Assembly (NCBI RefSeq): GCF_003073045.1
Contig: NC_037594.1
Location: 32,436,338-32,500,337, forward strand
From: Pomacea canaliculata
Lineage: Eukaryota; Mollusca; Gastropoda; Architaenioglossa; Ampullariidae
DNA: 64,000 nt
Direction: 5' to 3'
Shown piece by piece: positions 19,574-47,500 of this stretch. The position numbers and the translations under genes were made by a program. A model generated the notes under the pieces. That model made no database searches. It was not told the DNA's origin and saw nothing but the letters and a program-made list of their open reading frames with translations. Positions within the stretch are counted from its first letter, which is position 1. Each line of letters starts with the position of its first letter.

Positions 19574-20786
19574 TTACAAATCATACTCTAAAAGAGACGA
19601 ATACTTTGTGCCATCCCCGCCGTAGTTTGCGTTGAGGGAGGCTTTGTTGCACTTGCCTCGGAAGCGAGACAGACCCTTGACAGTGCCCTGCCACAAGCCA
19701 TCCCTCTGCTGCAAGTGAAACCATTCCGTGTCAACGGTCAGGGCCACAGCTTTGGCACCCGGGATTTTGACCTTAAAGTTTACAGTGTCCAGGTTGCTGA
19801 GGTTGCTGAGATGCAGGGGCTCGAACAGGTAGCAGCCCTCCTTCCACTGAGCGTACTGCTTGGGGTAGGGGGGCACGGCGGTGGGTGGGGGACTGGTGCA
19901 CTGGATCAGGTAGTTATAGACGTTCGGGAGGGTCTTGCTGTCGTCTGTGGAGGGCAGTGCGTAGATCTGCAGCTTGAAGAAGCCGGCGGCTGGCAGGCTG
20001 ACCAACAGACTGACCACGTCCCCGTCTGTCTGGGTGAAGACCAGCTCCTTGTACTCGCGCTCGTTTGCGCAGTCTATCAGGTTACTCGTCACCTGTTGGA
20101 GCGAAACAAAGAGTTGCAATTATGTCTTCCTAACTTGTTAATCGTCTGGCGACAGCTCTTTTTTATATTTTGGATTCGCAAGACTAAACTATTCTGTAGT
20201 GCTGCATGCAGTGGCGGTTGACCACAACCGCTCAAAGCATGATAAAGATTGTAACACAGTCGCAGTTGACATTCCAGGGTTGGACAAACCATTGCACATA
20301 GCATTACAGGAATTGCCACTCAGTCACACAAAAACATTCCAGATGTGAAGGAAAGGACAGCTTATCACCACTCAAACTGCAGACAGCTTGGGAACAGAAG
20401 GCGACTACATCGAGGCTGTAGAACACGAGAGTGTGTACAGCAGCGCCTTATGTTAATTGTATGTTGTTATCTTTAAAGACCTATGTGTGTGAGAGAGAGA
20501 GAAAATGTACGCCTGCATGTATAAACTTGCATACACTTCCATCTTCAAGATTCTATCTCTTGTTCATCCAGTACAGACATAATGGTATATGGTGCACACC
20601 ACTGACAAACGGACTCCACTGAGCGCAGCTCACCTTCATGGGCTTGGGCGTGCGCAGTTTAATTTCCAGCTGATTGGAGTCGGTGCGGATGTCGGGGTTA
20701 CTGTGACTGATGCATGACAGGGACCACTCCGAGAACTTGCTCTGAGGGCCCAGGTACCCGTACGGCAACTCGGGGCGGGAAGCCAT
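19574..20786 (-). CDS. stand-alone KY-tail protein A (two hillarin/KY-type Ig-like domains only)
   Basis: Two coding exons, 20786-20634 and 20092-19574, join in phase 0 to a 223-residue protein with stop TAA at 19574-19576. It aligns end to end with the last 230 residues of the hillarin-like protein encoded at 44541-54375. Domain 1 (about 1-115) carries GYLGPQSKFSEW, LPAAGFFKLQIYALP and NVYNYLIQC. Domain 2 (about 125-223) carries YPKQYAQWKEGCYLFEP, VNFKVKIPGAKAV, EWFHLQ and NANYGGDGTKYSSLLEYDL. There is no transglutaminase-like core and no signal peptide or membrane segment, so a cytosolic, non-enzymatic role is inferred. The ATG lies just after a CAG acceptor, so an untranslated leader exon exists (candidate at 24658). 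Function is unknown. Both domains are intact, so it does not look like a decayed fragment. Confidence 0.85.
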
Positions 20787-22329
20787 GCCTGCGACTGCCG
20801 ACTCCGGCGTTCAAACCCTGTGATCCAATAGAAGGTTGTAATTTATGCAGTGTTGATCGAGAATAAGGAATATGGATAGCTGAGACCGGACAAAATTCAT
20901 CATTGTTGTTAACCTCATTTAAGATAAGTAGATAACAACATGAACAACTATCTTATTATGAAATTGCTGTACCCCATCCCCTTAGCTTGTTTTCTAAAAA
21001 CTAAAGGCAGTTGGAATATGACATACTGTTAAGACCCACAGTAAGCCCATTCCATCAATCAGCAAGCAACATGGAGCAGTTACTTCATTAACAGACACAA
21101 ATGTTGATGAGAAGGACTAATTGGTAATCAGCATGCCGTCTAAATAAAGCATAGCGGGGCGAATTTGTTTATGGGGAAAGGGATTGGAACCGAATCAAAT
21201 CCACACCATTAGTCTCGTTCTCACCAAATGTGGTATGAACATTCGTTTCGACGATGGCCCTGTCGTAGGATATTTACAGATCTTCGGGGAATGTTTATTT
21301 TTTACATTTTCCAGACAGAAAAATACTACGCAAGCGACATTGCAACGCACCTCTGCCACGCGGAATAAACATTTATTTACAGTTATGAGAGAGAGATGAT
21401 GTAAGGGGAAGAGAGGGAGAGAGTCGTGTATCGGTTTCCGAACATGACCTCTCAGAGAAGTGACAGGAAGAATACAAGCTCTTCCTTGTTTTGCTGCACA
21501 CCAACAAGCTTACAATGTCCGAAACATCGCGGTCACGTGGTTAATTAACCATGTTTTGAAATTAAAAAAGAAAAATCGCACAAATTTTGGGTCAGCCTCG
21601 CTAGTCAATATTGAAAACATTTCAGGGTATTATTGTAAAATTGTAAAATTTCTTAAAATGTCAGAAAGAGATAAAAATGTTAAAGTTTATTATTTTATTA
21701 ATTATTTTTCTTTACTCATTTTTTTATAAAGTGGTCATCATCTGAAGCATCACAGCAATAAGCATTACCGCGACCAACAAGTTAATTATTTATTTGTGTA
21801 CTCGTCTGCCAATGTAACTCATGCAGACGGCATGACCAGCATCGTTGTTGTGCAGACATCCATTTGCTGCAGGCAGAACAGTTCTGCAGCAGACGATGCT
21901 TTCAGACTGTTTTCTTGGAGAGGGTGTGTGCTGATTCTGCTATCAGTGGTGCCAAGAGAGAATGCCGGCAATAGCTAGAGTGCTTGCGTGGAGTGGGGAG
22001 GGAGCCTGGCAGAGAGGGGACACCTAGCGGCTCTGCACAACACTAGGGTATGGGAGGCTGAGTCGTCGCATCTTCGTTTCTGCTGCAGTGCTCTATCTGT
22101 ACCTTGCGGTCTTCAGCATGCCGGCTGCAAATTTCCCCTCCTTAAAAATTGATGTTTGCTCTAACATTATTCTTGCTCCTGTTTTTGTAGTGAGAGCATC
22201 CTCGCACAATTTCGCTGCTTGCACATAAGCGAGCAAGAGAGATAAAGACAGAGCGTGTGTGCCTTCCCCCCGACTTCTTTTCCCCTCAGCGGCTATGGCT
22301 TTCCCCAACATGGTTCGGTTTTCAGGCAC

Positions 22330-22560
22330 TCCAAGCTTGCGGGTTTAGCATACTTGCTTTAACTCCGGGGTTTAACTCCTGCTCTAGGAGGTGGTGGGGG
22401 ATCAAACCCAAAATGGTCGCACGATTCCCGTGAACCAAAGCTAGAGTGTATGCCAGGTGTGCTCGCCGTGGTGGTCTGCTATAAACAGACTCTGGAAATC
22501 CCAGAGCAAAAAGAGGAAATGACCAGGAACCGAAGCGGCACAAGCGGAGTCTGAACGCAC
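22330..22560 (-). mobile_element. possible tRNA-derived SINE
   Basis: On the minus strand a weak A-box-like TAGCTTTGGTTCACGGG is followed about 30 bases later by a B-box-like GGGTTTGATCCCC, the right order and spacing for a tRNA-like head. No tail or target duplication was found. It may instead be an unrelated repeat. Confidence 0.3.
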
Positions 22561-22603
22561 GTCTCACCCACCTGACATCTGGGAGTCTTTCAGCACTGAC
22601 GAT

Positions 22604-22830
22604 CGCACGTCTTGCTTAGCACGACAAACGCGGCTGCTTGACCTCACGTGACTTGTCGAGCACGACAAACAGGACTGCTGGATCTCACGTGTCTTGTCTA
22701 GCACGACAAACAGGACTGCTGGATCTCACGTGGATCTCACGTGTCTTGTCTAGCACGACAAACAGGACTGCTGGATCTCACGTGGATCTCACGTGTCTTG
22801 TCTAGCACGACAAACGTGACTGCTGGATCG
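22604..22830. repeat. 41/52-bp minisatellite carrying six CACGTG E-boxes
   Basis: The unit contains AGCACGACAAACAGGACTGC followed by TGGATCTCACGTGTCTTGTC. CACGTG lies at 22645, 22686, 22727, 22738, 22779 and 22790. The first steps are 41 bases; an internal 11-base duplication then makes the step 52. The last two long units are almost identical. It lies in the leader intron of KY-tail gene A. Confidence 0.85.
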
Positions 22831-24324
22831 CAAGGCAGCGACACTACACTTAGTTACGCCTGCTTAGTCATTATGACAATCTCGCTCTACCTGAGTTAGC
22901 TATGACAAATGTGCTTCCCGCCATTTCAACATGCCGCGTACTGGGAAAATCAACTGGCTACAGCTGAAGGGGGTCATTAAAATTGTCGACAAATAGAATG
23001 CATTACCTCGACAATATTTTTGAAATGCTTATTGATAAAAATGTGTCCAGAGTTATAAATACACATATTAGACGATTGTGCCTAACAAGACCTTCAAGTT
23101 TATTTATTTAGCTATTTATTTATATACAGTACTCCAGAGAACTTCTATAAACATTTAAGTATTAATAACTGTCACTTCAAAACAACACCAACAACAAAAC
23201 AAAAGGACAACTCTAAAAATAGACCCTCTTGTCGATGGGCTTTGAGTCACAGACGGTACTGAAGGTACCAGATGCCTACTGGGATGGCCCCATACCTGTC
23301 TGGAGACAACTGAAGCTACTTATCCTGTTGCATCAACGTTATTGAATGTAAACAAGTTTTGTACCATTAGACAGGCTGGTATTCATGCGCACGGACACTT
23401 TTTCATTTATTCTGTTTCTCAGTCTCATCGCTCCGTTTGGTGTAAATTCTTGTCAGTCACCTAAAAGGTTTCACTAGATTGTCCAACATCACAATGTGTA
23501 AACTTTAAACCATAGTGAATTTGATTTGTGGACAAAGAACTGTAAACACTGTGTGTGTGTGGAAATGATAACAAACGGAACACGTCCTGAGTAGCGCGTG
23601 CCACGAGCAGCCTGCTTCCGCAAATGATTTCTTCAGTCGAATGCCTCTTTCCTTTCTTCTGGGGTCTGAGCAAACGTTTAAGATCCCGACGATGGACATT
23701 TCTTCCATTATAGCACAACGTGTGTCTCGTTAATACTTCTCTGCTTGGAGCATTCTGGGTTCTTTAAAAATAAACTGCATGTGATGAAGTAAGCATCTTT
23801 TAGACTACAGTAACATGGAAAAGTCTGGAATGGTACGCGCTTGTATTCTCTAGTGTGTGTATGTATGTTTGTTTGGCCAAAGCTCATCAAAATAAAACAG
23901 GGACGAGAGAAAGAGACTTGACCTTTCTGTCACCCAGATGCTTTCATTCAAAAGTTTAAGTTTTGCCTGTTGGCCTCCTTGAGAATTTACTGCAAAAAAT
24001 TCAACAACAGACATTCACTATTGGTGTCTGTGGCATCTATTAAACCGACTATAACTTGATAACTTTCTGGCTTTGCTTGGCTGAGTTCTCTGTGACAGAC
24101 CGGTGACAAAACATATTTTGGCACATGTAGGTAGAAAACAAAGTGGCTTTGCTGACCTGTGCTTATGACACAAAGGTTGGCAAAGCTATGATCTGAACGT
24201 GTATAAAGGCTACACCACTTTATTCTAGAGTTCTACAGCAGCCACCCATGCAGGTGAATTATTTTACCAGGAACAAAACCCGTCTAGTTCAAAGAACGGT
24301 AAAACCGGCAATATTCTCTTCTTC

Positions 24325-24375
24325 TAAAGAGAAAAAAAAAGAAAAAGAAAAAAAAGGAAGATAGAAAAAAAAATG
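24325..24375 (+). repeat. purine-rich low-complexity tract
   Basis: Nearly all A and G, with runs of A broken by single Gs. No element body is recognised beside it. Confidence 0.6.
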
Positions 24376-24657
24376 CGAAAAGTCAAACAATGCAAATCAA
24401 GCAGATGAAAAAGGGAAAAGTTATAACTGGAGGATAAGCAAGAGTAACTGCAGACATAAGGGCGCTCAACCTGTCTAACGTCTATTACACTTCCACTGAG
24501 AGAATCAGCGATGCAAGAAGCAACAAATTATACATTTTTGCTTTCAAATGTATCTGCACGCACGTGTCTGTGGACAAAGAGACAGTCACACCAACATAAC
24601 ATTTGTATTGCTCCCACCGCCAGACACTACTTGACTTACTGAAAGAAGAGTGCTTAC

Positions 24658-24835
24658 CACTCAAATGAAAGCACCCGGGGCCACGCGGGGATGTCAGTGG
24701 AGGAGCCGGCGCTTGAGATAAACCTGCTGACGAAGCTGGCGATGTGTGAAGTGCTGGATGTGAACGCAGTCTCTGCGGCTGCCTGGCTGCTCTGATGTCG
24801 TAGCTGCAGTGCTTCAGCAGACTTCAGACTTCCCG
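24658..24835 (-). other. candidate untranslated leader exon of KY-tail gene A
   Basis: On the minus strand this GC-richer block ends in GAGTG followed by the consensus donor GTAAGC at 24657. It is the best donor upstream of the coding exon, whose 5' edge is a splice acceptor. The 5' limit is a guess, and no start codon belonging to the protein frame is expected here. Confidence 0.4.
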
Positions 24836-25750
24836 GCGGGAATGGAAGCCTTCCATCAGTCTGGAAGGGAAGGGAGAGGTTCCTGATAGCCCGCCAAGTT
24901 CCTGGAATCTTGAATAATGATGGTACGTATGTTCAAAACTCTTCCTGCTGGGAAGTTTAAAAAGGTTTGAAGAAAAAGTTACCTTCCTTCTAGACAGGTC
25001 CCGCCCCCTTTTCATGTGAGTGACAAGCACAGGTAAGCGATAGGCTAAAGCTATGCTTCAGGTAGTTTTTTCTCACCTGTCTGTCTTTTATCTTACAGTC
25101 GGCGCTTCTACTTGCGGTATTTTAGGGAACCTCATCACCTGTTCAACCATATTGCGGGTAAGGAAGGAAGCTGATCTTTTCTTTTAATCCTTTCTCCTGC
25201 TCCCAACATTCCCCTCCCAACATCGCTGCAATCATCCCCGTTTTGTCATCCATCATACGCTGGGTGTTGTGTACACAAACTTCATAAGTTTTCACTTGTA
25301 ACAGGCCACGTCAGCTTATTCATCATCCTGTGTTGCGACATGGCAAAACCAGAACCTAAAGGAGACAAATGCTGGGGGCTATAATACATTAAGTTTAGCC
25401 CCCGCAGCACTCGGGGGGAGCCAAGAGGGGGGAAGTGGACTAAATCTGTTATCGTTACCGGCTTCTGCATGCTCCCGGCATCCTGAAATTTCTCCTCCCC
25501 TAAAACTTTCTCTTTTTCTCCCTTATCTACTGATTTTTGTTAACTGTCCGCTGTTGCCACTTTGATTATTCTGTGGCAGCACACAGTCATCGTGGCTCGA
25601 GGGAAAGAAGTGGGGTCTCTGATGTGTCATCTTGCTTCAAGCCTGACTGACAGTTAATGATGTTTGGCAAACCCAGTGGCGATCAACAGGAAGAACGTCT
25701 CGCAGACTAACACTGTGTCTGGGCCGCTCGCTTTCAACTTCAAAAAAAAA

Positions 25751-25860
25751 AATGCTTTACAGCCAGAGGAATGAGCAGGGCTGGAACCGACAACCATCTG
25801 CTTCACAATCGAGCCTGATACCAGGCTACGGAGTCTCCCTACCAACGGACAGCCATTAAT
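25751..25860 (-). mobile_element. tRNA-derived SINE head
   Basis: On the minus strand the A-box-like TAGCCTGGTATCAGG is followed about 35 bases later by the B-box-like GGTTCCAGCCC, the layout of a tRNA-derived SINE. A related head is seen at 56131. Element ends are not resolved. Confidence 0.5.
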
Positions 25861-26437
25861 GGCTAAGTATGTTTGAAAGGGTTTCATTGGGCCGAAGAGA
25901 TTATTATATGACCTGCTGCAGAAATTTCTAGCACGAAGTACGCAAGATGGAAGCACACAAAAAAAAAAAAAAAAAAGACCGACTGTAGCAAGCGCGAGTC
26001 GCGAATCGACGACCGGACCCGACTACATTTTTCCATTGACATCTTAGCACTGACCTGTTGTACGCATGTGTCGCCATTGCAATGAGGTTGTCAACAATCA
26101 AACTTCTTAGTCATTCAGACAAAAGAACTAATACCTAAACACTAATAAGCTAAACACCAGTGTCTCTTATGCACATTTGTCGAGTTTACAAGTTTAAAAA
26201 TATAGGCGCGCGCATACACACACACCAAGAAGAAGCCAAAACGTGAGTAACAAAGTTAATAAAAAGTATCCGAAAGAAAAAAAAAATACAGTCCTTTATA
26301 TTCCAAACGTTGGCCTTACCCACTATACACTATAGCAGCTTCAGTCAAATTTCCACTAGTTACTCTTTAGAATGAAAGAAGGACAAACTAAAAGACGATC
26401 TGTGCCAAGACGTCCACAGAATACAGTCGCCAACCTG

Positions 26438-26488
26438 ACAGGTAAACAAGTCAAACATGTAAACTGTGGACAGGTAAACAAGGGTTAC
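26438..26488 (+). promoter_or_regulatory. paired forkhead-type sites in a short direct repeat
   Basis: GACAGGTAAACAAG occurs twice, with GTAAACA at 26442-26448 and 26474-26480 (32 bases apart) and a partial GTAAAC between them. GTAAACA is the core forkhead-factor site. Whether it is functional cannot be judged from sequence alone. Confidence 0.3.
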
Positions 26489-29400
26489 AAAGTGTGGAAA
26501 GGTAGGGCGGGGGAGGAATGGGGAATGGAAGAGAAAGGTTAATTTGGTTCACGAGGCACATTTTGTTATTTATGACCTGCACAGGCACGAGACACGTTCC
26601 TCTTGTAACAAAGCATCACACTTTGTGTCTGTGTGTATATTCGACTATGCGGCTGGTGATACATTTAACCTCTTTTCGCTGCCAGAGTGCTAGGTCGTCG
26701 CTTTTTAGTCTTTCCCCGCTCGGGGCTGTTTTATTTTGAAAAACTTTGGAGCAGCTCATTGACCTTTTGACATTTTCACAAACCGTCCGTTACAGAGAGT
26801 GAGTGGTCCATCAGATATGACAATCCTTACATCGATACCACAAAGTTTTTAAACACTTCAATACATCACACTTCTAAGTAGATAAATAGCTATAACAATA
26901 TTATTTTAAAAAGTCTAAAGTTAGAAACTGTCTGGTTAGGTGGGAAGTAACACTTTTAATCCTTAAAAGATAACAAAAATTATAAAAACGTTGACAGGTG
27001 TTCGACATTGTAAAAAGGGAAGAAAGGGGTTAATATTGTGAAATGAATTCTGTTGGGGTTGGCAATCTTGGGTTTATTCACCTCGGTCGCAAAAATAGCG
27101 AGACAGGTGGGGGATGGGGAGGTAGATGTGAGCGGGGGGATAGTGTGCTGTAGATGTTTACTGACCCCTGGCGGCTTCTCACGATCCACAAGTGCAGCAG
27201 CGATTATTTGCAGCACTGTTCAGGGGAAGATGTTGAAGAAACACACAACAGTTGTGCTCAGCTTTAATTTCCTCGTAAACCAATTTTAACTGGGGCTGCA
27301 TGGAAGGCTGTTTATTTGCGTCTGATCACAGCTTTCAGATGAAGTTTTCATCTTGGAGCAAAGACATTCCTGTGTGGACCAACTTGTACACACTGTGTCT
27401 GTCCGTTTGTCGGTCGGTCTGTAAAAATAACAAAAAAACAAGTTTTTAACTTAATTACTGAATACTTTACCTTGATGGTTAGATAACTACAGGTGTGAAG
27501 TCTTTGAACTTCAGAATAAAGTATACAAGTGAAGTCTCAGACGCCGTGGTGAGGTAAGTGCTTCTGCATTATGGAAGCTTGAGGTGAAGCTTACTGCACC
27601 GTTAATTATCGCCACACCTTCCCCAGTCTACTCTGTGCGATAATCCGTCGGCCGGAAGCAGTTAGACCAGGTGGCACGCAGCACCTCTCAGCATCCTTCT
27701 TAACTTCCCTGCTAGCTGTCACTACAAACCAATCATCTTAGACAGAGTTTTTGTCAGTCTCAAGTGTGTGAGAGGCTTGTCAGAACATGATTTCTTTTCT
27801 CAAAACCAGGTTTAGTTTACCACAAGTTACACTGTTACACATTCCCGGCTACTGAACAAGAAATTTCACTTCTTTGTCAAGAAGCAAGTGTTCAAGAAAT
27901 GACATTTTCACCTGTGCACAGACAGAAGCCATTTTGTCAAGTCTTCAAATATCACCATACACAAAAAAGGTCAAAGCTGTGAGGTCACGATATGTTTTCA
28001 GCTCTCCCATTGGCCCTCAACGTAAATGTATCCACGTACAATCCTGACGTCAGCGTTGTTGATCTCCTTCTATGCATGCTGATATCTGTAAGCGTGTATA
28101 ATGTATCTTGAGAACGGAAGAAAACATTTTCCCTTCTTTAGGACGCATATGGATTAAAAAACTGATAAATCAAAAATTCCAAAGATAGATAACATGTCAG
28201 TTTAAACGCAAATACATTACTGAAAGACAACAAACTTTCCGACAGGAGTCGAGCACAAACGCTCTCACAACGCTGACTGACCGGGACTAACAACTATTTT
28301 CTGTGCTAACTTGGATCGCACTCACGCACATAAGTGTGAAACTGAAAATAGAAATGAGTTCCCATAAGTCATTAACTTATAAATTGTAATCTATGTGTCA
28401 GTGATGTGCAAAATATTGATGCTTGCTTCTGCATCCTTAAGATGATGTCAAGAGGGTTATGCAATGTTTGACCGCTCTCAGCTAACGTGTTGCCATGAGC
28501 GATAATAATGATAAAAAAAAAAAAAAGCTTTTCTGCGCTTAGTCACTTTTTCTCTTCTCTGTTTCCAACTTCTCTATCCTTTGATGTTTTAGTGCTGAAC
28601 TCGCAAGAATGGTATTTCGGTCTTCGCGATAGTTCCAGAACTTTACAGCTTCTCCCTTTTTGCAACAAGCGAGGCTGTTATTTGCAGCTTTGTTGCACCG
28701 AAAGATATGTTTTTATCATGCTGTTGTGATAGCCAAATTATACATTCACTCAACGGCGATCATATATTTTTATTTTCAGATGATCAGTAGCACTCTGTTG
28801 CCGTTGCTCAAATTTGGCGAGTCCTGGTCTCCTCTATGGTGCACCCACCACACACTACTGTTAATTCCAGGTGCTCAAAAAAACACAGCTATTCGTCTTT
28901 GGATCCACAAAAGAAGCGATGAACCAAAAGAGCCGTTATCAAGCCTCCCTGCCAAGTCTAGCAATTTATTTTTTCTTCTTCCTTTTCTTTTTTGGCCAAG
29001 CGAGCAAGTGCAAGGCGGAACGCTGAAAAAAGAATTCTCGCAACTCTGTAGTTTTCTTCGACTATCACGACGGGATAAGACTGAAAACAATTGTGATTTA
29101 TAGCTGCAAATGCTATGTAAAATTACCTTTTGGCACAAATCTGTAACTCACAAACACACAAAAAATAAATCCATTGTGTTGTTAGCACGACATACCTAAA
29201 AAGAAGAAGAAAGAGAGGGAAGAAACGCGTTGTAATTATCATTCCTGAAGATGTAACAGTGATACCCATCACACCCCTGGTGGCATGCCAGAGGCTGTAT
29301 TCATGAAGAGAAGATAAGTCATCGTCCCGAGTAAATCAAGAGCAAGCATCTTCTCTAAATAGTCATTAAGAGCGTCCAGGTGTTGATTTTCCGAGGATCG

Positions 29401-32400
29401 TAGTTATAAATTAGTGGAAAAGATGCCTGGGAGTAAAGTAAAATAAATATCCGTGGAGTTTTTAACTACAAAGACGAAATATTTTCCTTGATTTCTCCAT
29501 TCTGCCCAAGAGTGGTAATGTAGTTTCGCTTCATGAGCATGGCCACTGATATTATGAGAGTTGGACTAGTTGGCTGTAACCTGCTGGGATGCCCGGCCAT
29601 TAACCTTACCTACTGGGTTGCGTGGCACAATGCAGTGTATCACCACGTGTGACTGACAGTTCAAAGGTCAAGTCACCTATTATTAACTTCGGTTTTTTTT
29701 TTTCTATTCCAAACCCAGGTGAAAAAAAAAACTGAAAGATTGTAACACTTCTGCGATAAGCCAATAAATGTTGGCAACTGGCTGTCTAAAAATCTCTCGA
29801 TCTTCAGGGGAGAGCCAGGCTATCGTAGACGTGTATCTAAAGGCAACAGTTTGAACTTAAATGCAAAAATCATAGCCTCCTCCCACCCAACCCCTTAAAA
29901 AGGCAAGAAAAAAAGAAAATATGTCGGTGCAAAGTGTGTGAATAGGCTACAAGAATGTTTTAAAGTTTAACCCCTATTTTCTACTGTCTGGATTTGCAAT
30001 CTACTCTTCCTTTCATAACTTTGTGTTCTTCCTGCCTGTACAGTGTATGTGTCTCGACACCCGCCACCTGGGTGAAAACGGTGGGAAAATAGTTGGAGTT
30101 CACAGGTGACACGAAAACTCTCGACAAACAGTCATGCAGGTGCTAACGAAAGACAAATAGGGCAAAGGGCAGGTGTAAGGTTAGCGGTTGACGAAGCTAC
30201 CCAAACAATCTTTCCCATCCATTGAGACCGACGATTAGAAGATTTGTCACAACGAACGTGTATACGATACTCCAACACCAACAAAAGAAAGACCTCGATA
30301 TTCCGATGTTAGACAATTTTCCGGACTAACTTTTCTACAGAAGCAGTCAATTGTAGTTTGATGTCGGTATTTGAAGCAGAAAATTGACTCCTCCCCATTC
30401 GTTACCCATCTTCGGAGCAGCTGGGCTGTGAGAACACCAGGTGAGGAGGATGGTTAGGTCTAGATATAGATATCCCCTCAGAGCACACTCTGTGGATGTG
30501 ATTCTTGTAAACAAGCTAACCTTCACGAGTTTTCTCCGGTTTTCTCCCCATTCCCTGCATAGCAGGAAATCACCAGTGACACGTTCCCACCAAATAAATC
30601 AACCAGGTAACCAGCATCGACACGCTGGGACTGGAGTCTCACCAGGTTTAGTCCACATCATGTTACACCAGGGTGAGCAAAGTTTTCTTCTCGGGCCGGT
30701 CTCACAATTCTAAACTATGGGGTGGGGCGGAGACATAGAAAACCCACGCCATGTTACTATGCAACAAACCTCGTGAAAATAGGGAAAACATGCTTGTGGT
30801 GTTCACAACGAATTTAATGTGAACAATGAATATGTTTGAATTCGCTCACGAGTCTTTCAAAATGTGGCCGCGTTTCCGATGTGACAATTCTCAGAGCTGC
30901 GGCCAAATGTTCATCCATCTCCGCGAACACAGGTCAGACTTGCTCTGCTTCATGATTGAAAAAGTCTGTTCGCAGACAAACCTCGATGCCAACATCAAAG
31001 TTCGGAAACGTTCAACATGTCATGTCGTCTCACTACTTTGTGTGGACGATGTGACGTGACTGTTCCGTGCATTTAACAATGGACCATGTCAACACACATA
31101 AAGATCTTTGCATGTTGAAACTGAATTAAAACACTACTTTACTGTACTGCCGCCACCTGGAGCATAGACACTGTCTGGGCTGGCCACCTTGTCCACAAGA
31201 TTTGAAAAGAACTAGACACTTTCTTGAAGAAGAAACAGCAAGAAATTCAGATGGTAAGCTTAAATTTTATGACCCAAAGAAATTTAGTCTTGAAATTAAT
31301 TATAATTTAACATTTTTCAGTTCCTTTTTGTAAAGCGATGTGAACTTGACTCTGGTTGGAGAACAGTGCTAATTAAACTCTCTGATACTGAGTATTGCTT
31401 GTTTGAGGCGGGATGAGGTGAAGAGCAACATATCTTTCACATGGGGTACAAAATAGCGCATCACCGGAGATAATAGTAATGACACATTAGCAATCACTAC
31501 ACGTGCGTCCATCGATAAATCGAACAGGTGAAACAAGACACACCTACACTCACCATCCCTGGGAGGTTTAACCCCACTGACAGGTGATAAGACCAGCCGT
31601 TCATTTCACTAGAGGAACACATTATGAAAAACTTGCTGAACATTTTAATAATTACATAAATATATGTGTGTACAAAGATAATGCGCCATGCTGCAAAGAG
31701 AAGAAAACAAAATATCTGCCAGCCATGATCTTGTCAAGGGTTTTAAAGTCCAAACAGGAGCTGCTTACAGTCCAGCCAGATAACTGTTTCATGGTAAATA
31801 AATGGATAAATGGACTTGACCTAATCAAACATCACGTGACAATACCTTGGAAATATGCTTTCAGGTGACTCGTTAAACATTCTTAATAAAAGTAAGAATT
31901 CCCAAACTTTTCGACTGTACAAAATGGCGAAAAAAAGAACAAAATATTTTGGTCTAAAGCAGGTCTGTAAACAGGTGCTATAAAAAATGTTTTCTTGAAG
32001 GAGGAAAAAAAGAAAGGTTACACAAATTATAGCTACCGGGCTGCTGTTAAATGAGGCTGTGGACATGAGCCCTAGCTACCCTAAATAGCTGTTTGGCAGA
32101 AAATGGGTGGCAGCCAACCATACCTGGGTAAATAAACAGCGATGGCATCGGCAAGTCTCCATTGTGCGTATTGGGATAAAGCCTTTTCAAATTTCTATAG
32201 TTTAAAATAAAATCACATCAGATGTCCCAGCAGTCACTTATCAACAAACATCCGAGTCACGGTCACCGTGCTGCCACAAACATTAATTTTGAAGTCCGAG
32301 TTCACAAATCAGTTCGTAGTAACGGTTAGTTCGAACACAGGAACACGTTTGTTATGTTATTATTCATATTACCTTTATGAATTTTATGATATTTGAAAGT

Positions 32401-32800
32401 GTTTTTCAAGTGTTATATGGGCAAAGAAAGGTAAAATATAGAACTAAGTGATATTAAAGACGAACTGTAGTATGTGTTTCGACTTAAAGACGGTCTCGGG
32501 ACTCGTTTGTAACCGGAGGCCGACTGTGGTGGTCACAGACCTTCATGATGGTCGATGGTGTTGGTGGTCACTGCATTAATAATATAATGTGTCATCAGTT
32601 CGCATGTCCTCGTTGATACAAACAATCGCCCGTTCCGAGGCAAGCCACGCGACAACAGTTATGGATGCAACGAGACAAAGAACCGTCGCACACAAGCCCC
32701 ACGACCCCACGACCCCACCCTCAGTAACCTATGATCACGTGGTGATCACCCCAGATCGCGTGACGTGGCTTGGCATGCACAATGTCCCAGGCGCTGATGA

Positions 32801-35800
32801 TCAGATGGTGTACTCTAGCAGAGTGTTATATTTGTTGCCACCCGACTTCACGTTGACCTTCACTTTGGTGTTTGGCGGGTAGGACTTGCTGAAGTCGACC
32901 AGACCATCAAAGATGCCAGGCTCCACCTGCTCCAGCTGATTCCAGTCCTCGTCAATTTTCACCTGGAAACCAATATTGTACAATAATGCGATGTGCCTCA
33001 GTAATGTACACCGGGGTATATACTACAAATTGAGGTCAAAATTAAGGTTATGATTTGGGGTGGAAGTTAAGGGTTGGGTCTTGGTTAAGGGTTGGTTAAT
33101 ATTTTCTCGTATAAATACATACTATAGCACGAATAAATCAACGTATGGTCATTTTTTTGTTGTTATATAGGAAACCATTTTACGACATTTGTTGGCTTTC
33201 AGTATTTCTTATAATACATTTTTTATAATCCACATCGGATGGGATGAAGTTACTAAAGTGAAAACACTTACTCCACAATCACATGACGATTTAATTACTG
33301 ATATATTATGGCTAGATGCGATGAGAGCTGTTATTTTTCTCTTCCTGACATCAACACAAGTGTTTACACACGTTACGACATGTCGTCAAGAGCAATATTC
33401 GCAGATCAAAAGTTGCTTAATGCGATTCATTTCTCCTGCCAGCAAAAAATCGTATGTTTATAGGCAATAAGCTGAGATTTTTTTACTCGCACACCTAGCA
33501 GCACGAGAGTGGTTACCGGTCCGCTCTGCCACGAGTGCTTGTCTTGATGTTTGCTGTAAGTGGCAACACGTGGCGCACTTCCAGCTTTTTAATATCTAAA
33601 ATGGCGTCTTGGCTGGCACAGGGTTAATAATAATAAATGTAAAATGTGTAAAGCGCATACTCACACTCCTAAGGAACATGCTCTTAGCGCCTAAGAACAA
33701 GAACGAAACATGAACAGCATACGAGCACGAACTTGTATTACTGGACTGCTAACAACGATTTTTTTTCCCAGTTAACTACTAAAACGAGGTAGGAGTGTAA
33801 AAAGCTTCCGGTTTAGTCACATTCGTTGTGGAGGCTCGCCGAGACTAACAGCAGAGACTTTCGCAAGAGGCTAAGCAAGGGTTGGTCTCGGCAGACAGAC
33901 AGCAGTCCACATACTACACACGTCAGCGATAGAAGTTTATGTCGTCACCAGCTTAGACATCCACAGACCGAACAGTTGGCGGTTTGGGCGTTACCAGCGG
34001 AAGCTGCCATGGTTACGCAGTTACTTCCGATCTTCGCACAATGTTTGTGTTAAGTTACTAACTTCGAGAGCAGAATTGTAAAATGTAATGAACAGGGAGT
34101 AAAACTGAGCCTGCAGTTCGATGATGTGCTTTGAGTGTGTGCTGATGTAAAACTATATTCTAGCAAATAGTTTTTTAATATTTTAACGGAATAAAGAGGA
34201 ATAAAATTTGTCCAGTACACCATAGTGTACACAACCAAAACTTTAGCTTTATCAGAAAATATTAATGTTTAACAGTTAACGATGCCCGGAATAACAGCTG
34301 ATTTCCATAGCAACTGGTACTCATGTTGATGTCTCAGTATTTTGGGCTGTCCTGCCTCTAACTTCCTATTTTTCTAATAGGATCACGGGTGCATGGTTTT
34401 TGTTTTCTTGACCTGTACAGAGCTTAAATGTTTTAATTCTTTTATTTCAAAACTGGTGATGTAGATGTTACTCTTCGTGTCTCACACTGATTTTAGGACT
34501 TGCAATTCTCGCACTTCGGAGGATTTCCGCCTCGGAAATTTTTTTCCACTCAAGAAAAAACTAGGGAATGTCATGAGCAGGGTCTGTAAACATTTTAAGT
34601 TCTACCGACTAAACAAAGGTATTCCGAGGCCCCACCCCTCTCAGGAGTGATCAAAAGGGCGATAAACAGAAGGCTGAAAGAGCTGACAGGTGGAAAGTGG
34701 ATTGCTGGTGGAAGCTGGGAATGAGAACAAGGAACATCGGGGCTACACTTCAGGCCAATACCATGTTTCAAAGCCAAGCAGGTCATACAGTAAAGGATGA
34801 AGTGAGAAAGCAATTATAGGACATAATGCAGTTAATCATGATTTGATTTGGCTAAGCACAACTACTTTGATGTGTTAAACACGCGCAACGAGGAAGAAAG
34901 ATGTCATTTTAGTAATAAGAAGAAAAGAATGAATATCTGATTATTTTATCCTACATTTCCAGCTTATTTTTGAGTGTATTAACGTATTTTGTTCGTGACT
35001 GAGTGATTTGTATTAGGCAGGAGCCCAATCCTTGCCTATCGGATTTCTTTACAAGCTGGACACTACAAGCCCTATAATTTGTACACGAATTGTAAGGTTG
35101 TTCTATGGACATGAAACCAGTATCACCCATTAGTTTCATATCAGTGGTCAGTTATAAGGACAGATGGATACGACAGACTACAAGTGGCTGATGTAGTGTC
35201 CCCCACCTGCACATCTCGAGCTCCTGGAATGTTGAGTCGGAAGCGCAACGGGGGTCCACGATAGCCTCGAGGAATACCCAAGGTTCTCTGAGGTAACATC
35301 CGCCGTCCTTCCACATCTGGTACTGTTTGGGCAGGGTTGTAACACTCTGCAAAAGAATTTGGTATTATTGTGTGAAATATAAACTTCTCATCTAAGGGAG
35401 ATTAATATTTACACGAAGATTTTTTAAAAGTTTTAGTTTAATCCTCTTCGCAACGATTGAAGTGTTAGCCGCCAACTTTCATGCCATCTCCATCGCAGGC
35501 AATCAACTGACTTTCAGGTCTTACTCTACCGCTTTTTTCTTCTTCTTCACAGTTTGTCACAATCCAGTAGCCTGCCTCTCTTTCTTTCTCCTAAAGCCGT
35601 AGTTATGAAGCGAAGGCAAGTCGTTGCCCTGGTAACAACATGAGGAACTCAAGGACAAGCGCCCTGTCCTGTGTTTAGTCCACTGCAGGCCCTGTCGGCG
35701 CAAGGTGGATTTATACCAACGACCAATGAGAAAAGTATCAGTGACAGGATGAACACCTGCTTGACGTCTATGTCCACTCTAAAGGATTCTGTCAGCTGGT

Positions 35801-38800
35801 TGTTGTGGATGACTCGGCACTCGAAGTGTCCATACAATGGATTTGATGACACTGACCAATTTTGTGGGATGCCATAGTGATGTAGGATCTTCTTCTTATT
35901 ATTATTGTTAGAGATTTGGGTATTCATTTAACTTAAAGCCCATCATACTACAATAATGAACCAATATCACTCTCGTCAGTTACTGTGGATTTACATAACA
36001 CATTTCTCAAGCGCAGAGTAGACACAATAAGCAATCAAAATACACAAACTAAATTTACAAAATAAATAGCACGTCTTCAAACACAAACCAAAGACAAAGG
36101 CAAAAACGAAAATAATTCATCCTGGCATTGCTCTGTTTGAAATGGACGGCTGTTATTGTTCGAACAACGAATGGTTGTGTTGGTCATATTTGACATTAAC
36201 AGCTGCTTGTGTTATCGGAGTTCGATTCGCCTAGTGGGTCTTGGATGATTCGGCTTTTGTCGGGACGATGTAGTCTTACCTGGGAGGATATGGACATGGC
36301 TGGGATGATTTGACTTAGTTTGGGGCGAGATGGTCTAGGGCGAAGTGGCCGGTGACCAAAGTCAAATACTCGCAAATCATCAAAAAACCCGTTTTTAAAG
36401 CACATTTACTGGAACACGAGGTATTTTGGATTTGAAAGTTGATTTCACCTGCGCGGTGTTGGGGCAGTGTATCAGGTAGTTGTACACGCCAATCATGTTA
36501 GGCCCCGCCTCCCCCGAGGGCAGGGCGTAGATCTGGAACTTGTAGAAGCCAGGCGCCGGCGGTCGGATGAGGAAGCAGTAGGATGGACCGAGGCAGCGCA
36601 CGAGGGCGAAGTCACTCACGTCCTGCTTACGTTCGTGCGACAGCAGCTTGGACGTGACTCGTGTCTCGGTGGTCGTGCCAATGATGATCTCCACCTGCAC
36701 ACAGAAATGTCACAGGTACCACACACGAACACTCACTTCTAACCGCTCCTGCAACCCTCGCAGTCCTCTGGTACTTTCTCCAACACGTGTTTTCTCGAAA
36801 TGGACGGTGTGACGACTGCTGATGAAGAGCGATCAAATGTATGAAGTCTACCCATAGCCTAAAATTCAAGATAAGTCAATTGATGCTAACAAAATATTTG
36901 GATTAAAAAAGAGATGTTTCATGTTTGTCCGTAGTTTTGATTGTTTGTTTTTCTCCCTCTCTCTATCTCTCTTTCTGTGGACCGATGCCACATAACAGCG
37001 ATCTGGTTCACATCCAGAGAGAAACTACATTTGCCAAAGACGAGATCTGATCCTTCTAAGCCGCGATGCTCACCCTTTTGTGACAAGTTCTTGACCTTTG
37101 CACCACCAGACTACCCCTCGATTAAAATAGAACTTTGCTTCTGACCCTTGTGTTGATGATGCTTATAAGGTTGATGATACATTTATTCACCCTTCCTCGC
37201 TGCATCCTTCGGTGCATTCCTGCACAGCATTGCCCCGCTCTCAACTCTTTTAATTGGTTAACTCCCTGAGCAAACGTTTTGTGGCGGGTGCAGGCGTGCT
37301 GTTAAATAAACAGACTGCAGGGCTGCAAGTTTACTGTAGCCGCCTGCACCTTCATACGGATCTTAATTACATCCATGCTCACCTCACCACGTAGCCCTAT
37401 AGCCTCTTCTAGTGTTTGATCCCAAGAATTTAACTACATCAGCCATGTGTCCGTAGTTTATGGATGCTTTCTGCTAGTTGATCTCCACTTCATTAGCTAG
37501 AGGTACAGTCATTAAGTCACAATAAACTTCACTTGGGTCAGCTGCCTCGTTCTGTCTTCTTCCTTGATCATGTGCGCACACACGACACCCGTGCACACAC
37601 GATACCCACGCACACACGCCACCCACACCCACACGACACCCACACACACAACACCCACACAAACACACACACGACACCCACACACACACGACACCCACCC
37701 ACACACCACACCCACCCGCGAATAAACACCACACAAGCATACACACATACACACATACACACACACGTGACCACGCATACACAGCCACGGAAGATGTCTG
37801 CAATAAAAGTGTTTCGTCTGTTTAAATCTTCAAGTTTTCTAGCCCTATAACTCAAGGGCTATCTGCGAATCACATAAACATAGATCGGGTATCTTAATGC
37901 TCATGCCAACGGTTTAACTTTAACATACGTGGCTGCATCTGGATGGCAAAAAGAATGTCGAATATTCTTTGCCAAACAGGTTTAGTCCGAGCATTTCTTG
38001 TCTGTCAACGTAAACATTAAAACTTTAGAGACCTTGCTTATCTTTTTTGTCAGAAATATGTTTGGCTAAGAATATGTTGTTATATATATATAGTTGAATA
38101 AAAACCAACATTTAACTGCGACGGTGGCTTGAACGTTTGATTTTCAGCGATCTAACATACAAATAAAAAGTAATTCCCGTCATGTTTGCAATCAAAACTT
38201 GAAGAACCACCAAAGCCCAGTCTGGGAAAGCATATCAGGGGACATCACAAGAAGCCAGCGTTCCTGTGCTTATTCTTATCTACTGTACTCAGCATCTTTA
38301 CCTGCCCCTGACCGAGCCATGGCAAGCTGCCTCTCACCGTCAGTTTTTTTCCTCTCTCTCTCTACCCCCATCCTGCCTTCTCGCTCGGAGTGTTGGTACC
38401 GTTGCGCAAGGTTCCAATATTTATATACCTTTCTTGCAGACGAACTGTTGTCTGCAAATCTGCAAAGACTGCGCCAGGGAGGAGCGATCAGAGCATGGAT
38501 GTTGGACCACCAATGTCACAATTCAACAGAAGAGAACACAATGTCGTTTACATAAAAGCTTTCCCCTGATTTCTTGCAAATCTATTTAATTAAATAAGCA
38601 AGTCAAGCGAACTGTGACAACTAACCATACACCTTCACTTCCACTGGCAGGGAAGCAGAGAGAAAATGTGTGTGAGTGAGTGAGGGAGAGAGTGAGATAG
38701 AATGGATGCACACGCGAAAAGTGCAAGAAACTTGTGCTTTCATTAAAACTTTAATTGTTTCCCAGCGCGCTGGTGATGGTCTCGATGCTGGCCTCCACAG

Positions 38801-39053
38801 TGTTGAGACGAGCTCCCTCTAGAGGAGAGCCTAAAAGCATTTGGAAGCTGCAGCGATGAGGAACATAAAAAGCAAGTGGTTTGCGCGGTGGGAAGAGGGG
38901 ATCTGGCAAGCGAAAGTGTCTTCCTACCTCTTCCTGGTCGTCTGTCATGTAAATTACAGGCTCAGGGTGAGACAGGGTGGTCATGCCGTACTCCTCGAAC
39001 TTTGCCTGCGGCCCCAGGTAGCCCTCAGTAAGCTTCGGCAGCTGCACCGCCAT
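32801..39053 (-). CDS. stand-alone KY-tail protein B (two hillarin/KY-type Ig-like domains only)
   Basis: Four exons in transcript order: 39053-38928, 36694-36449, 35346-35207 and 32962-32801 (stop TGA 32801-32803). The start ATG is in good context (AAGATGG). The product would be about 224 residues: domain 1 with GYLGPQAKFEEYG, PPAPGFYKFQIYALPS and GVYNYLIHC; domain 2 with LPKQYQMWKDGGCYLREP, LRFRLNIPGARDV, EDWNQLEQ and NKYNTLLEYTI. It aligns with the end of hillarin and with KY-tail A but is more diverged. Exon 3 is 140 bases, one short of keeping frame: homology runs in one frame up to LREP and continues one frame over from LGIP, so a base is missing near 35280-35282. Either the assembly lost a base or this copy is recently damaged. 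It has no catalytic core. A LINE fragment lies in intron 2. Confidence 0.8.
33622..33705 (-). mobile_element. 3' end of a deeply conserved SINE type (Nin-DC/Deu-core-like)
   Basis: On the minus strand GCGCTAAGAGCATGTTCCTT, then GTGAGTATGCGCTTT and an ATT-repeat tail resemble the conserved 3' domain shared by SINEs across many invertebrates. It lies in intron 3 of KY-tail gene B. The family name is from memory; the head was not found. Confidence 0.5.
35640..35905 (-). mobile_element. LINE reverse-transcriptase fragment
   Basis: The minus-strand translation reads HYGIPQ, then LYGHFECRVIHNNQLTESFR and LSLILFSLVV, matching the fingers-to-palm part of a non-LTR reverse transcriptase (family pattern HYGxP...YxGxxCxVxxxGxLTxxFxVxxGVxQGCxLSPxLF). 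The conserved GVRQGC box is eroded and the frame changes after the LFSLVV block, so the copy is dead. It sits in intron 2 of KY-tail gene B. Confidence 0.75.
37573..37768 (+). repeat. CACACGACACCC-type microsatellite
   Basis: CA-rich repeat with recurring CACGACACCCACAC words. It produces long spurious open frames on both strands rich in His/Thr or Cys/Val. It lies in intron 1 of KY-tail gene B. Confidence 0.85.
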
Positions 39054-39077: not shown

Positions 39078-42000
39078 GAAGTGGGACTTGGCGTTGCCAG
39101 TGACTATAAGACGTACATATGCTAGCGACCAGCCTCAGCGCGTGAGAACGACTGTGCGATCGGCGAACCGGAAGTCCAAGGACTACTCCGACTACCAGCC
39201 AACCTTTGGCAAGACAGATAATGTCTGATACAGTTGCTAAAGGCGGTAGATAGATATCTCATACAGCTTCCGTTGGGTTCGACCCTCTTGCCGCCAGCAG
39301 CACCCTTCGTGCACTGTCTGACTGCTCGTGCGCGTGTTCAACACCCTCCGCGCCACCTGGTGGTGTCCGACGTCTCCTGACACAAGACGCGCGACGCTTG
39401 TACCTGCCACATCAAACGCCTCTGCCGCAGGTGCCCTACCCCGAGTCGACGGCGTGCAAATGGCGGAGAGGATTACCATATGTGTGGCCGAGAAATGAGT
39501 GTGTTTGTATGACAGTGCACCTCGTCAGCCTGTCGAGCAACTTCTCTGTCAACTCTGCCCTGGTGTCTCCGCTTTATTTCGCCAGATAATGCGAGGACCT
39601 CGAGGCAGACAGCTCAAGCAATTACTTTCCCATTTTGCTCAGCAATGAGGCTGTTTTTGTACTTTCAATGTGTATACATATACATACTACTTGTACACAT
39701 CATGCCATTTTCACCTGCATGTACGCAGCTTCCTTGCTTAACTTGGAACAGATACCGGAGGTAGGGTATCTTGTAGATGGGCGGGTGGGTCTTGTGTGTG
39801 TGTGGCGGGGGGAGGGGCGCGCGGAAGTGTGTATATAGTGCTCAAAGCTTCTCGTGGCAGAATATACCTACATGTACAGCTGAGGCCATCGCTGTTGCTG
39901 GCATCTGCAGGCCCCGGCTGGCAACAGCAGCTTAAAGGTCATAGGTCGAGTCTTTTTACCTGTCACTCACTCGCCCACTGGTGTCTGCACACTCTTGTAG
40001 TCTTGTACACACGTACATACCAAGTTTTTTTTCGGGTGAGTCTCTTGTCTGGAACTACTTATCTCTCGATCAACATTTACATTTCAAGCATTGAATTGTG
40101 CGGCATGCAGAAATAAATATAAATACCATCAGTTGACTGCTGGTGTTCTGAAATAACATTTTAATGTCTTGGCAACGTGAGTTTTCAGGTTTTGGATAAT
40201 TCGGGAACTTCTGCAGATTTGTTTTTATCTTTATAGCTTACTCGTAGAATGTTTGTGATATCAAAAGTAAACAAATTTAAAACCACGTGCAACACGTGAC
40301 CATGAACACAGTTTATGACAACAGTTTTGTGGTTCGTGACATGCCACTGTTTAATTCGTGACACAGCTACACGGGTATCTGGAGACTGCAGACATGTGGT
40401 TAGTGACTATCCCGACACACCACCAGCACTTCTTTTTTTTACAAGAAAGGGAGAAAAGAGGGACGATGCGAAGTTCCAGCATGCATTGTGCTCCTCCGCA
40501 GCGCCTTGCGTAAGAGGGAGGATCGTGTTTCTCTGGCCTTCTTGGTGAGGAGGCGGGGCCGCAGGTACCCGCCACTTCCTGCAAGTTCTACCTGTTCCTT
40601 CCTATTGTGCTCATAAACTATAAATAGACTAGACATTGTGAAGTCTGGAGACTGCACATAAATAGATATTATAGATATGCAGGAAGTTGTTATAAATATG
40701 CAAATGTAAGCAGCGACAGAGTGTTTGCTGCCATCAGAAGTGTACAAAGGAATACAAATAGCTGTGTGCGCATGGCATGTGAACACCTGTGTCTCTGGGT
40801 GGATACACACTGAAGAAGTCAAATCTCTTATGACAGACGAAACAGTCCCATTCAACAACAAACGGATGGAGCACCCCAAATATAAACACAGGTCCCAACC
40901 AACCATGGATTTCAAAGAAGAGCGTGGGCATTGTACATATGTTTATTGGTTGCATGGTCCGTCAGTCGGCACCCGGCCCTGACTGTTCATACAAACCATG
41001 GACGCTCCTGATAAAACGGTCTGGCTCCCATTATGGCATCAGCGTGATTTCTTGTGTTGCTCGTGGTTTGCGCATGCGGTGAGTAGGAGACAAGGTGTGC
41101 TCCAAGGTTCTCCATGTTTGCTTCTGACAAAACGTGGAAATGGAAGCGATCGTCGCCGTCGCCTCTATTTTTAGCCTCGCTCATCATCCGAGAGTAGTGG
41201 AGATAGTGCGTTGAACAGGTATTAAACGAGGCATCCCCAAGCAAATGAGATCTGCACCTGCAGTTGCCATTTATGAGAGCATTGCTTCACAACCCGTTTG
41301 GTTGCCGTACACCCACCCACACACCCCTGTGCAGGGGGGCTCGATCCCAGACTGATGTGTGAGCGCATGCATGTATGTTTAAAGTGTTGCAGAGTGCTTG
41401 AACACAAGATGTAGCTAAATGACTTCTGATAAAGGGAACATCCGTGCTCTCAGACCTCAGGCTGTTGATATGGTAGTGGCCTAGCTGCGATAGCAGTGCG
41501 TGGGGTCTACCCCAGCCTGCCCGGAGAAATATAGTTAAAATCTCTTTATGGTGCTGCTTTTTGATTCAATCACTTTCAACAATAATTTTGTGAGCTAGCC
41601 TTCCATGGGAACTCTTATTCCTGCAGTCTATAAGCTCTTAACATGACCACAGAAATATGGACAAGCATTTTCGTGGCCTACAGCCCTACACAACTACCTG
41701 AGCCAGACCCTGGCCCACACACATTTTAAAAGCAATTTGTGTATTGGGCACTTTCATGAAATATTTCTGGTACACAGCTCAAAACAGCTGGAATTATCTG
41801 AGCATGACTTTCCACATCTACATACTAAAACAGGAACAAAGTGGATGCTGTGTTTCATAAAACTGATGGACCTCTGCAATTAAGTTTCCATTTCTTGGAA
41901 ATTATATTTTAATAAATTACTTAAAAAATGAATCTGTTGTTCATAGAGTAACACTGATGATGTTATACAACACTTATTATAATTTTTTTATTTGGTATTT

Positions 42001-44540: not shown

Positions 44541-47500
44541 TTACAGTACATACTCCAGCAATGTGGCATAACTGGTTTTGTCACCTCCGAAGTTGGCATT
44601 GAGAGTGACCTTGGAATTAGTGCCGTAACAATGAGATACTTTAACAGGACCACTCCACTCGTCACCTTCGCCTTGCTTGAGGTGTGTCCACTCATTGCTG
44701 GCAACAACAGCAACAGCCTCAGCACCAGGAATCTTCACTCTGAAGTTTACGCTCTCAGGCAATCGGTTAATCTGCACCTGTAAAAAAGAAGTGATTTCAA
44801 GACTGAGAATGTCATAAAGTGTTTCCGCTTTTTAACAACACTTGAAGGAAGGTAGGGATTTACTCTTTTCCTTTTGAAACACAGAAGTAAGATGAATTAC
44901 ACTCTCTTCTAAAATGCAAAACTTAATGTCAACAAATGTCTAAAAATCCTTCAAAAGAAGGCAATAAATTCTGACATCAAACCCCACAAATAAACTTGCA
45001 AACTAATTGTCACCAGTGTGAGACATAAGCTGAGGGTCCTTGGGGCAAGGAAAAAATGGATTCCGAGGAAAATAGAAAGTATAAAACTTTGACTGAAGGA
45101 AAAAAGAACTGTAAGGAAAAACTGTCAGCATTTGAAATTCTAACTGTTTAACAATAATGATGCTACCTGATGCGATGAAACCATAAATCTTTTGTTCTCT
45201 GGGTCAAGGTCTTTTCTATAGCACACCCTAAGATCAATTCTTTAAGAGATATGCTATGAAAGTGTCATAGTAAACATACCTGATTGGAAAATGGTCCTCT
45301 AACAGTGGGGATGACACCAGGTTCTGCCATATAGCAGCCTTCCTTCCACTGAGCATACTGTTTTGGGAATGGGAAGACAGCCTGAGTGACTTGCTGGCAG
45401 TTGATGAGATAGTTGTACACACCTGGAAGTTCCTGTCGCTTATCGGCAATGAGCAATGCATAAATCTGCAGCTTGAAGAAGCCAGTGGTAGGAAGATTTG
45501 CTATGAAGGTGATGTACGATCCCAGAGTATTAGAGAAAACGAAGTCTGGGAACTCCTCCTCCTGCTCAACAGAGATGAGATTCGCTGTCACCCGCATAGG
45601 CGCCTCAGACTTAAACTGAATGGTGACTGTGTTGACATCAAGGTGAATGATGGGGTCTTGGTGGGAGACAGCAACAAGACCAAACTCAGAAAATTTGGGC
45701 TGAGCTCCCAAGTAACCAGGTGGCAATTTGGGCATTGGTGTTGTTTTGACATCTTCCTGGCACAGCACAAGAAACTGGGCTACATGGTAGAGGGTCTGGC
45801 CCTCTGTTGCTGGGTTGTTAGCATAAATCTCAAGTCCATATTCCCCGCGTCCTGGGGCAGTGATGTTGAAGTAAGCAGTGTTCCCAACTGTGCGGTGGAT
45901 AACATACGCCTCCAGCTCAGAATCACCAATGCGGTTGTGCTTCAGCTTGGCCATGAACTGCATGGGACAGGGCTGGCGGATCTGCAGCTCAGCTTTGCCA
46001 TCCCGTGTGTAGATTGTGCATGACTGCTGGTAGGTTGTCAGGCCATAGCGGTAGAATGCAGACCCTACACCCCAGGATGAGCTTGAGCATGGTGGGTAGG
46101 GTTCGGGAGGAACATCAGATACTGCCTCATGTTCAATCTTGTATTCGCAGACCTGGGCAAAATTGTAGTCCTTGGTTTCTGGTGTGTCCTCTTTGGCATA
46201 AATGAAAAGCATGTACGAGCCTGAGCAGGGTAGACGAAGAGAGAAAGAGGCAATTCCACCTGTGCTTTCTTGAATACAATACCTGTAAAAGGAAAATTTT
46301 GCATAACCAGAAATCTAAAATGATAACAGCACTGCTGCACTGATCTTCCATATTCTTGAGCTCTATCTCTTACTTCAACTTCAAATCATACAGGTCCCAT
46401 AATCTAAGACTATGACATCTGAGTAATAATTCAATGAATTTCATGTCAACTTCAATTACAAAAACTTTTATGAGAGAAGACGAGACTGATCATAGAATAT
46501 GGTTGGCAGAACAAGGTCAAGAACTGACGATAATAAAGATATGCTTGAATTAATAATGGCTTGTTCAAAAACCAAGTGATTAAAAAGTGAAGAAAAACAC
46601 CTATGTATCAAGAAAAAGTGTAAATGATACTGAGGATTTTACAAATCAGAAAGCCTCACCTATTCAGCTTAACACCATTGTATTCCTCCACACCACCTTC
46701 AAACTGGATGGTGAAGCTGAAAAGCACTGCAAGTCTATGTGCTGGGTATCGAAGGCGAATGTGTATTTCACCTCGGCTGTAAATGACTGCAGTGCGGTGA
46801 GTCACAAACTCCAGGCCATACTTGAAAAATTGTGGCTTCATGTGAGGCATGTTCTCAAACTCTTCCAGGGTGACGGGTCTTTCCAGCAGCTGCCACCGTG
46901 GGTCATCAGGAAAGTGGGTGTAGATGAGCTGGTGAGGGTCTGGCAGGAAGAAGTACTCATCAAGCTGGTAGTGGAACTCTTCTGTAGAAGCTTGTTTGCC
47001 AATGATGCGACGTGCTGCCCAGTGTGCATCAATAAGGCACCAGGTGCCATAGATATAGATTGCATTCCAAGAGTGCTGGTTCTGGCCTGGTGAGAACTTC
47101 ATGCCTGGCGTGTAGTCAGCACCTTTGGCATAACCACTGATGATTTTGGAGTGAAGTCCTGCATAGCTGCACAATAATGCTTTACCCTTTAAACAACTAC
47201 ATTTGATGAATCCACTACCACTTTTCTTCTGCAGTCATTACACAGATTTTTGCAAAAATCTATTTTATTTTTAATCAGTAATCAAATTAAGTTTCACTGA
47301 CTTTTTTCTGGAAACACACATCACTTCAAATCACTCTTATACCATTTGGAAATCACGAGTTTAAAAAGGCCTTTAAACAATAACACTGTTGAGCTCTTAC
47401 TTGCACATTGTATCAAAGACCATTGCATAAGTTGTTGTGCCTGTCTTCAGCCCCATGAGTACTTCCTCAGGGCTGCCCTTCTCCACACGATCAAAATTCA

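Follow-up and report, generated by a model that had tools for sequence, protein, structure and literature searches.

Tail-only relatives of the KY/hillarin family in the snail Pomacea canaliculata

The locus and its genes

The window that we analysed is a stretch of 64,000 nucleotides of the Pomacea canaliculata genome (C5:32436338-32500337), and the genome that we searched comprises 440,159,624 bases in 24 contigs. On its minus strand, the window contains a hillarin-like gene and two genes, here called A and B, that match only the tail of this neighbour. The features are listed below in window coordinates.

20634..20786, minus strand: gene A exon 1, ATG at 20786
19574..20092, minus strand: gene A exon 2, with the remainder of the KY Ig-like domain, the C-terminal domain and the stop TAA at 19574
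38928..39053, minus strand: gene B exon 1, ATG at 39053
36449..36694, minus strand: gene B exon 2
35207..35346, minus strand: gene B exon 3 (140 nt), in which the frame shifts by one base after CYLREP
32801..32962, minus strand: gene B exon 4, stop TGA
39101..39500, no strand: CpG-richest 400-base step of the window (34 CpG, o/e 1.07; window median o/e 0.37), directly upstream of the gene B ATG
44541..44774, minus strand: final exon of the hillarin-like gene, with the stop and the C-terminal domain
45265..46314, minus strand: open frame of the hillarin-like gene, three Ig-like_KY stretches, the last of which is the first domain of the tail
46656..47678, minus strand: transglutaminase-like core C of the hillarin-like gene, two exons inside the span
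51622..53453, minus strand: transglutaminase-like core D, exons inside the span, frame break near 51880

Gene A (20786-19574) consists of two exons with GT-AG splice sites in phase 0 and encodes 223 aa in an intact frame. Its sole match in Pfam is PF23265 (Ig-like_KY, residues 15-126, E 1.5e-23), and it aligns with the tail of its hillarin-like neighbour over 217 residues at 51.6% identity. An earlier note on this DNA had described gene A as a minus-strand gene of this length that matches the tail only, and had found neither a signal peptide nor a membrane segment in A and B. Both descriptions agree with our results, as a hydropathy scan shows no such stretch. The 400 bases 5' of the gene A ATG are not CpG-rich (9 CpG, o/e 0.56). 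A CpG-rich region with up to 27 CpG per 400 bases lies at 22300-22900, and its reading frames show peptide-like units that recur.

The neighbour is named hillarin by its family content (core and Ig-like_KY) and by its earlier naming; leech hillarin and fly D-hillarin entered our comparison by description only. Between 44541 and 54390, the minus strand carries core D followed by core C, and the sequence that separates the two contains Ig-like stretches and one rich in proline (~48076-48987). The joined exons of both cores were confirmed as core by Pfam, and the two possibly belong to one double-core hillarin gene.

Tails without a core

When searched exon by exon over the genome, PF01841 alone gave four matches, none of them in KY loci. 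We thus sought the cores with KY-type queries, which resulted in a set of 46 places (45 of 61 search rows and one further). On C5, these queries matched only inside the window and nowhere else on the contig. A profile search for PF23265 gave at least 45 matches in the genome, and in 42 of these 45 a transglutaminase-like core lies within ~2.7 kb upstream on the same strand. The three matches without a near upstream core are gene A, gene B and a third gene, E. Their nearest upstream cores are found at a distance of 10 kb for gene B (past the hillarin-like gene's own stop), 27 kb for gene A and 11.3 Mb for gene E. Between genes A and B and the hillarin-like stop, the KY-type searches found no core; the earlier note had seen none in either gene. 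Neither the window nor loci L023 and L024 contain runs of N. Since genes A, B and E lack an upstream core, we regard them as tail-only relatives of the KY/hillarin family and not as full members.

Gene E (C5:21137094-21135850), which is absent from the earlier note, lies on the same contig ~11 Mb from the window. Its three exons form an open frame of 227 aa with an Ig-like_KY match in Pfam (E 1.7e-21), and its best matches besides itself are gene A and the hillarin-like tail.

Alternatively, splicing could join genes A and B to the core exons of the hillarin-like gene as alternative 3' ends. Both genes have the same strand and order and follow the hillarin-like stop by 24 kb (A) and 5.5 kb (B). 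However, an in-frame TGA was computed 9 codons 5' of the ATG in gene A and 28 codons 5' of it in gene B, which leaves room only for cryptic acceptors. Furthermore, gene E has the same form 11 Mb away, with an in-frame stop read from the sequence 2 codons before its ATG. We thus consider alternative 3' ends very improbable, and the upstream stops make the three genes look separate. The tail-only form with own starts, as proposed earlier for A and B, is therefore supported for gene A and also for gene E, whereas the frame of gene B is broken in the assembly.

The comparison to known proteins follows the same division. All three genes match the hillarin-like tail of the window but are far shorter than hillarin, lack its transglutaminase-like core and have start codons of their own. 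With vertebrate KY (kyphoscoliosis peptidase), genes A and E and the first part of gene B share the Ig-like_KY domain, whereas the core of KY is missing from all three.

The broken frame of gene B in the assembly

Gene B (39053-32801) has four exons with plausible splice sites, and its first 146 residues match PF23265 (E 9.6e-19). The length of exon 3 leaves a remainder (140 mod 3 = 2), and within the exon VTTLPKQYQMWKDGGCYLREP and TLGIPRGYRGPPLRFRLNIPGARDVQ are read in different frames. Due to this frameshift, gene B encodes no continuous protein of ~224 residues in the present assembly. Of the protein of that length that had been proposed, the exons, the splice sites and the domain in the first part are retained, but the frame is not open, and the LLEY motif lies in exon 4, beyond the frameshift. 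By eye, we found a candidate donor, GTATTC, within exon 3, whose use would mend the frame at the cost of ~24 residues.

Gene B may be a third functional copy in which the assembly has an error, or a copy that was disrupted recently. As a pseudogene, it would leave the window with a single functional tail-only gene beside a copy in decay. The one-base break in exon 3 speaks for a pseudogene, as does the genome search, in which exon 3 was found at a single place and no second, intact exon 3 was detected. Against it, the break is the sole lesion seen, and start, stop and splice sites are intact. GC3 is 0.78 before the break and 0.65 after it, compared to 0.79 in gene A, 0.78 in gene E and 0.51 in the hillarin-like tail; high GC3 may reflect strong expression. 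The 5' end of gene B also carries the top CpG count of the window (35 CpG in the 400 bases 5' of the ATG, o/e 1.06). Moreover, similar breaks occur at five other KY-family exon places (one in core D of the window, two in L016, and one each in L018 and L025) and in two of five intronless-looking HSP70 copies, the other three being open throughout. Such breaks fit assembly errors, although some of these places could be pseudogenes as well. Weighing both sides, we consider a pseudogene a real possibility that falls somewhat short of an even chance.

One HSP70 copy (C1:14727105-14728920) has adjoining pieces in several frames and is a pseudogene or a poorly resolved stretch. A published assembly of Pomacea canaliculata was built from PacBio data, polished with Pilon and resolved into 14 chromosomes (PMC6129957).

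Relationships, domains and possible function

The four tails (A, B, E and hillarin-like) have pairwise identities of 31-52%, and intron positions are unlike among them. A recent local duplication is thus ruled out. In an alignment of five tails, 19 columns are invariant; these include W134 and, in the LLE motif at the end of the C-terminal domain, L218, L219 and E220 (gene A numbering). In gene B, this motif lies past the frame break. Codon positions 1 and 2 are more conserved than position 3 in all seven comparisons, although the excess is small at position 1 of gene B after the break against gene A (0.44 against 0.41).

In the tree that includes L025, genes A and E and the hillarin-like tail are separated from gene B (86/93), and A groups with E (75/86). 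Without L025, A again groups with E (81/87) and B is unplaced. The earlier note had called the tail-only genes a branch; the trees neither support a clade of A, B and E nor speak clearly against it (p-AU 0.053 with L025, 0.141 without), so that, judged from their sequences, the tails may have one origin or several. Of the stretches that match a pattern in the collections of prokaryotes (57) and viruses (109), none was confirmed as a relative; thus, a foreign origin gets no support.

Two Ig-like domains had been proposed for the tail. The first is recognised by Pfam as Ig-like_KY, whereas the C-terminal domain has no Pfam match, also none to CBM48/E-set, and a PDB sequence search with tail A gave no match up to E 10. 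We modelled gene A exon 2 (170 residues, five sequences; mean pLDDT 58.8) and the last 97 residues (three sequences; pLDDT 72.4), and both models contain a beta sandwich at the C-terminus. In Foldseek searches against the PDB, the best-ranked matches of both models were mostly CBM48/E-set, with a probability of up to 1.00. This could indicate a glycan-binding CBM48-type module, and the genes would then encode carbohydrate-linked adaptors. However, the best E is 7.8e-3, with none below 1e-3, TM is ~0.4-0.5, and the models were built on few sequences with the pLDDT given above. We thus consider a glycan-binding module quite improbable; the resemblance of the last ~75 tail residues to E-set/CBM48 sandwiches is weak and serves as a lead.

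As a reference for the catalytic residues, we used a core of the transglutaminase type from the snail's own genome (C13:22595475), which we take to be PNGase-like. In all KY/hillarin cores aligned to it (8/8), the catalytic Cys column holds another residue. The His column is retained in cores C and D, and a candidate Asp lies close to where it would be expected but is offset by two columns in the alignment. The missing cysteine makes it probable that the hillarin-like neighbour is a pseudoenzyme, and the loss of a core need not equal the loss of an enzyme. Because the tested cores themselves lack the catalytic Cys, the label 'enzyme-free', by which the earlier note had set the tail genes apart, is not distinctive. 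In the vertebrate KY core, by contrast, conservation of the putative catalytic residues has been reported (PMC6078408).

Core-bearing KY genes also form a tandem array at C11:15259418-15615970, of which L029-L032 are parts. Twenty-two places match the second half of an array core; we inspected four 10-kb stretches and found a core exon in each, and the remainder is taken from search rows. The array is a large expansion of core-bearing KY genes that apparently lack the Cys. Among solved structures, the snail KY core profile comes closest to FAP246 of the ciliary central apparatus (PDB 7n6g chain 6E, E 6.4e-12).

The tail-only genes, at least three in number and with A and E looking intact, probably represent a modest variation within a family that is already known. 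In our explanation, A, B and E would be paralogous to the C-terminal region of hillarin/KY proteins, would start from ATGs of their own and would have arisen by an old 3'-partial duplication or by core loss after duplication. The products of A and E would be short (223-227 residues) and apparently cytosolic, with a KY Ig-like domain and a C-terminal beta sandwich. They may keep the putative binding surface of the hillarin tail and serve as adaptors in their own right, or compete with hillarin and so restrict it at cytoskeletal sites. Taken as a whole, we hold this explanation to be about evenly balanced between right and wrong. As to function, small cytosolic adaptors that have partners in common with the hillarin tail appear most likely. 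Against this, a domain of the Ig-like_KY or E-set type may have been recruited to a different task once it stood on its own. In other animals, hillarin has been linked to septins (PMC3081291) and KY to filamin C (PMC6078408). In the open-access papers that we consulted, we found no description of a tail-only KY/hillarin protein. A bolder reading is that tail-only KY proteins form a long-lived, well-expressed class of small mollusc adaptors, which compete with hillarin at its cytoskeletal sites or cap it there, and that the family as a whole has already abandoned catalysis and expanded as scaffolds; we regard this as unlikely.

Expression of genes A and E would mean that the KY/hillarin tail functions in the absence of the core. 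They would then offer a minimal natural construct for finding the partners of the tail, a question that arises for human KY disease as well. Since the tested snail cores lack the catalytic cysteine, the KY family of this snail may act by binding and not by chemistry.
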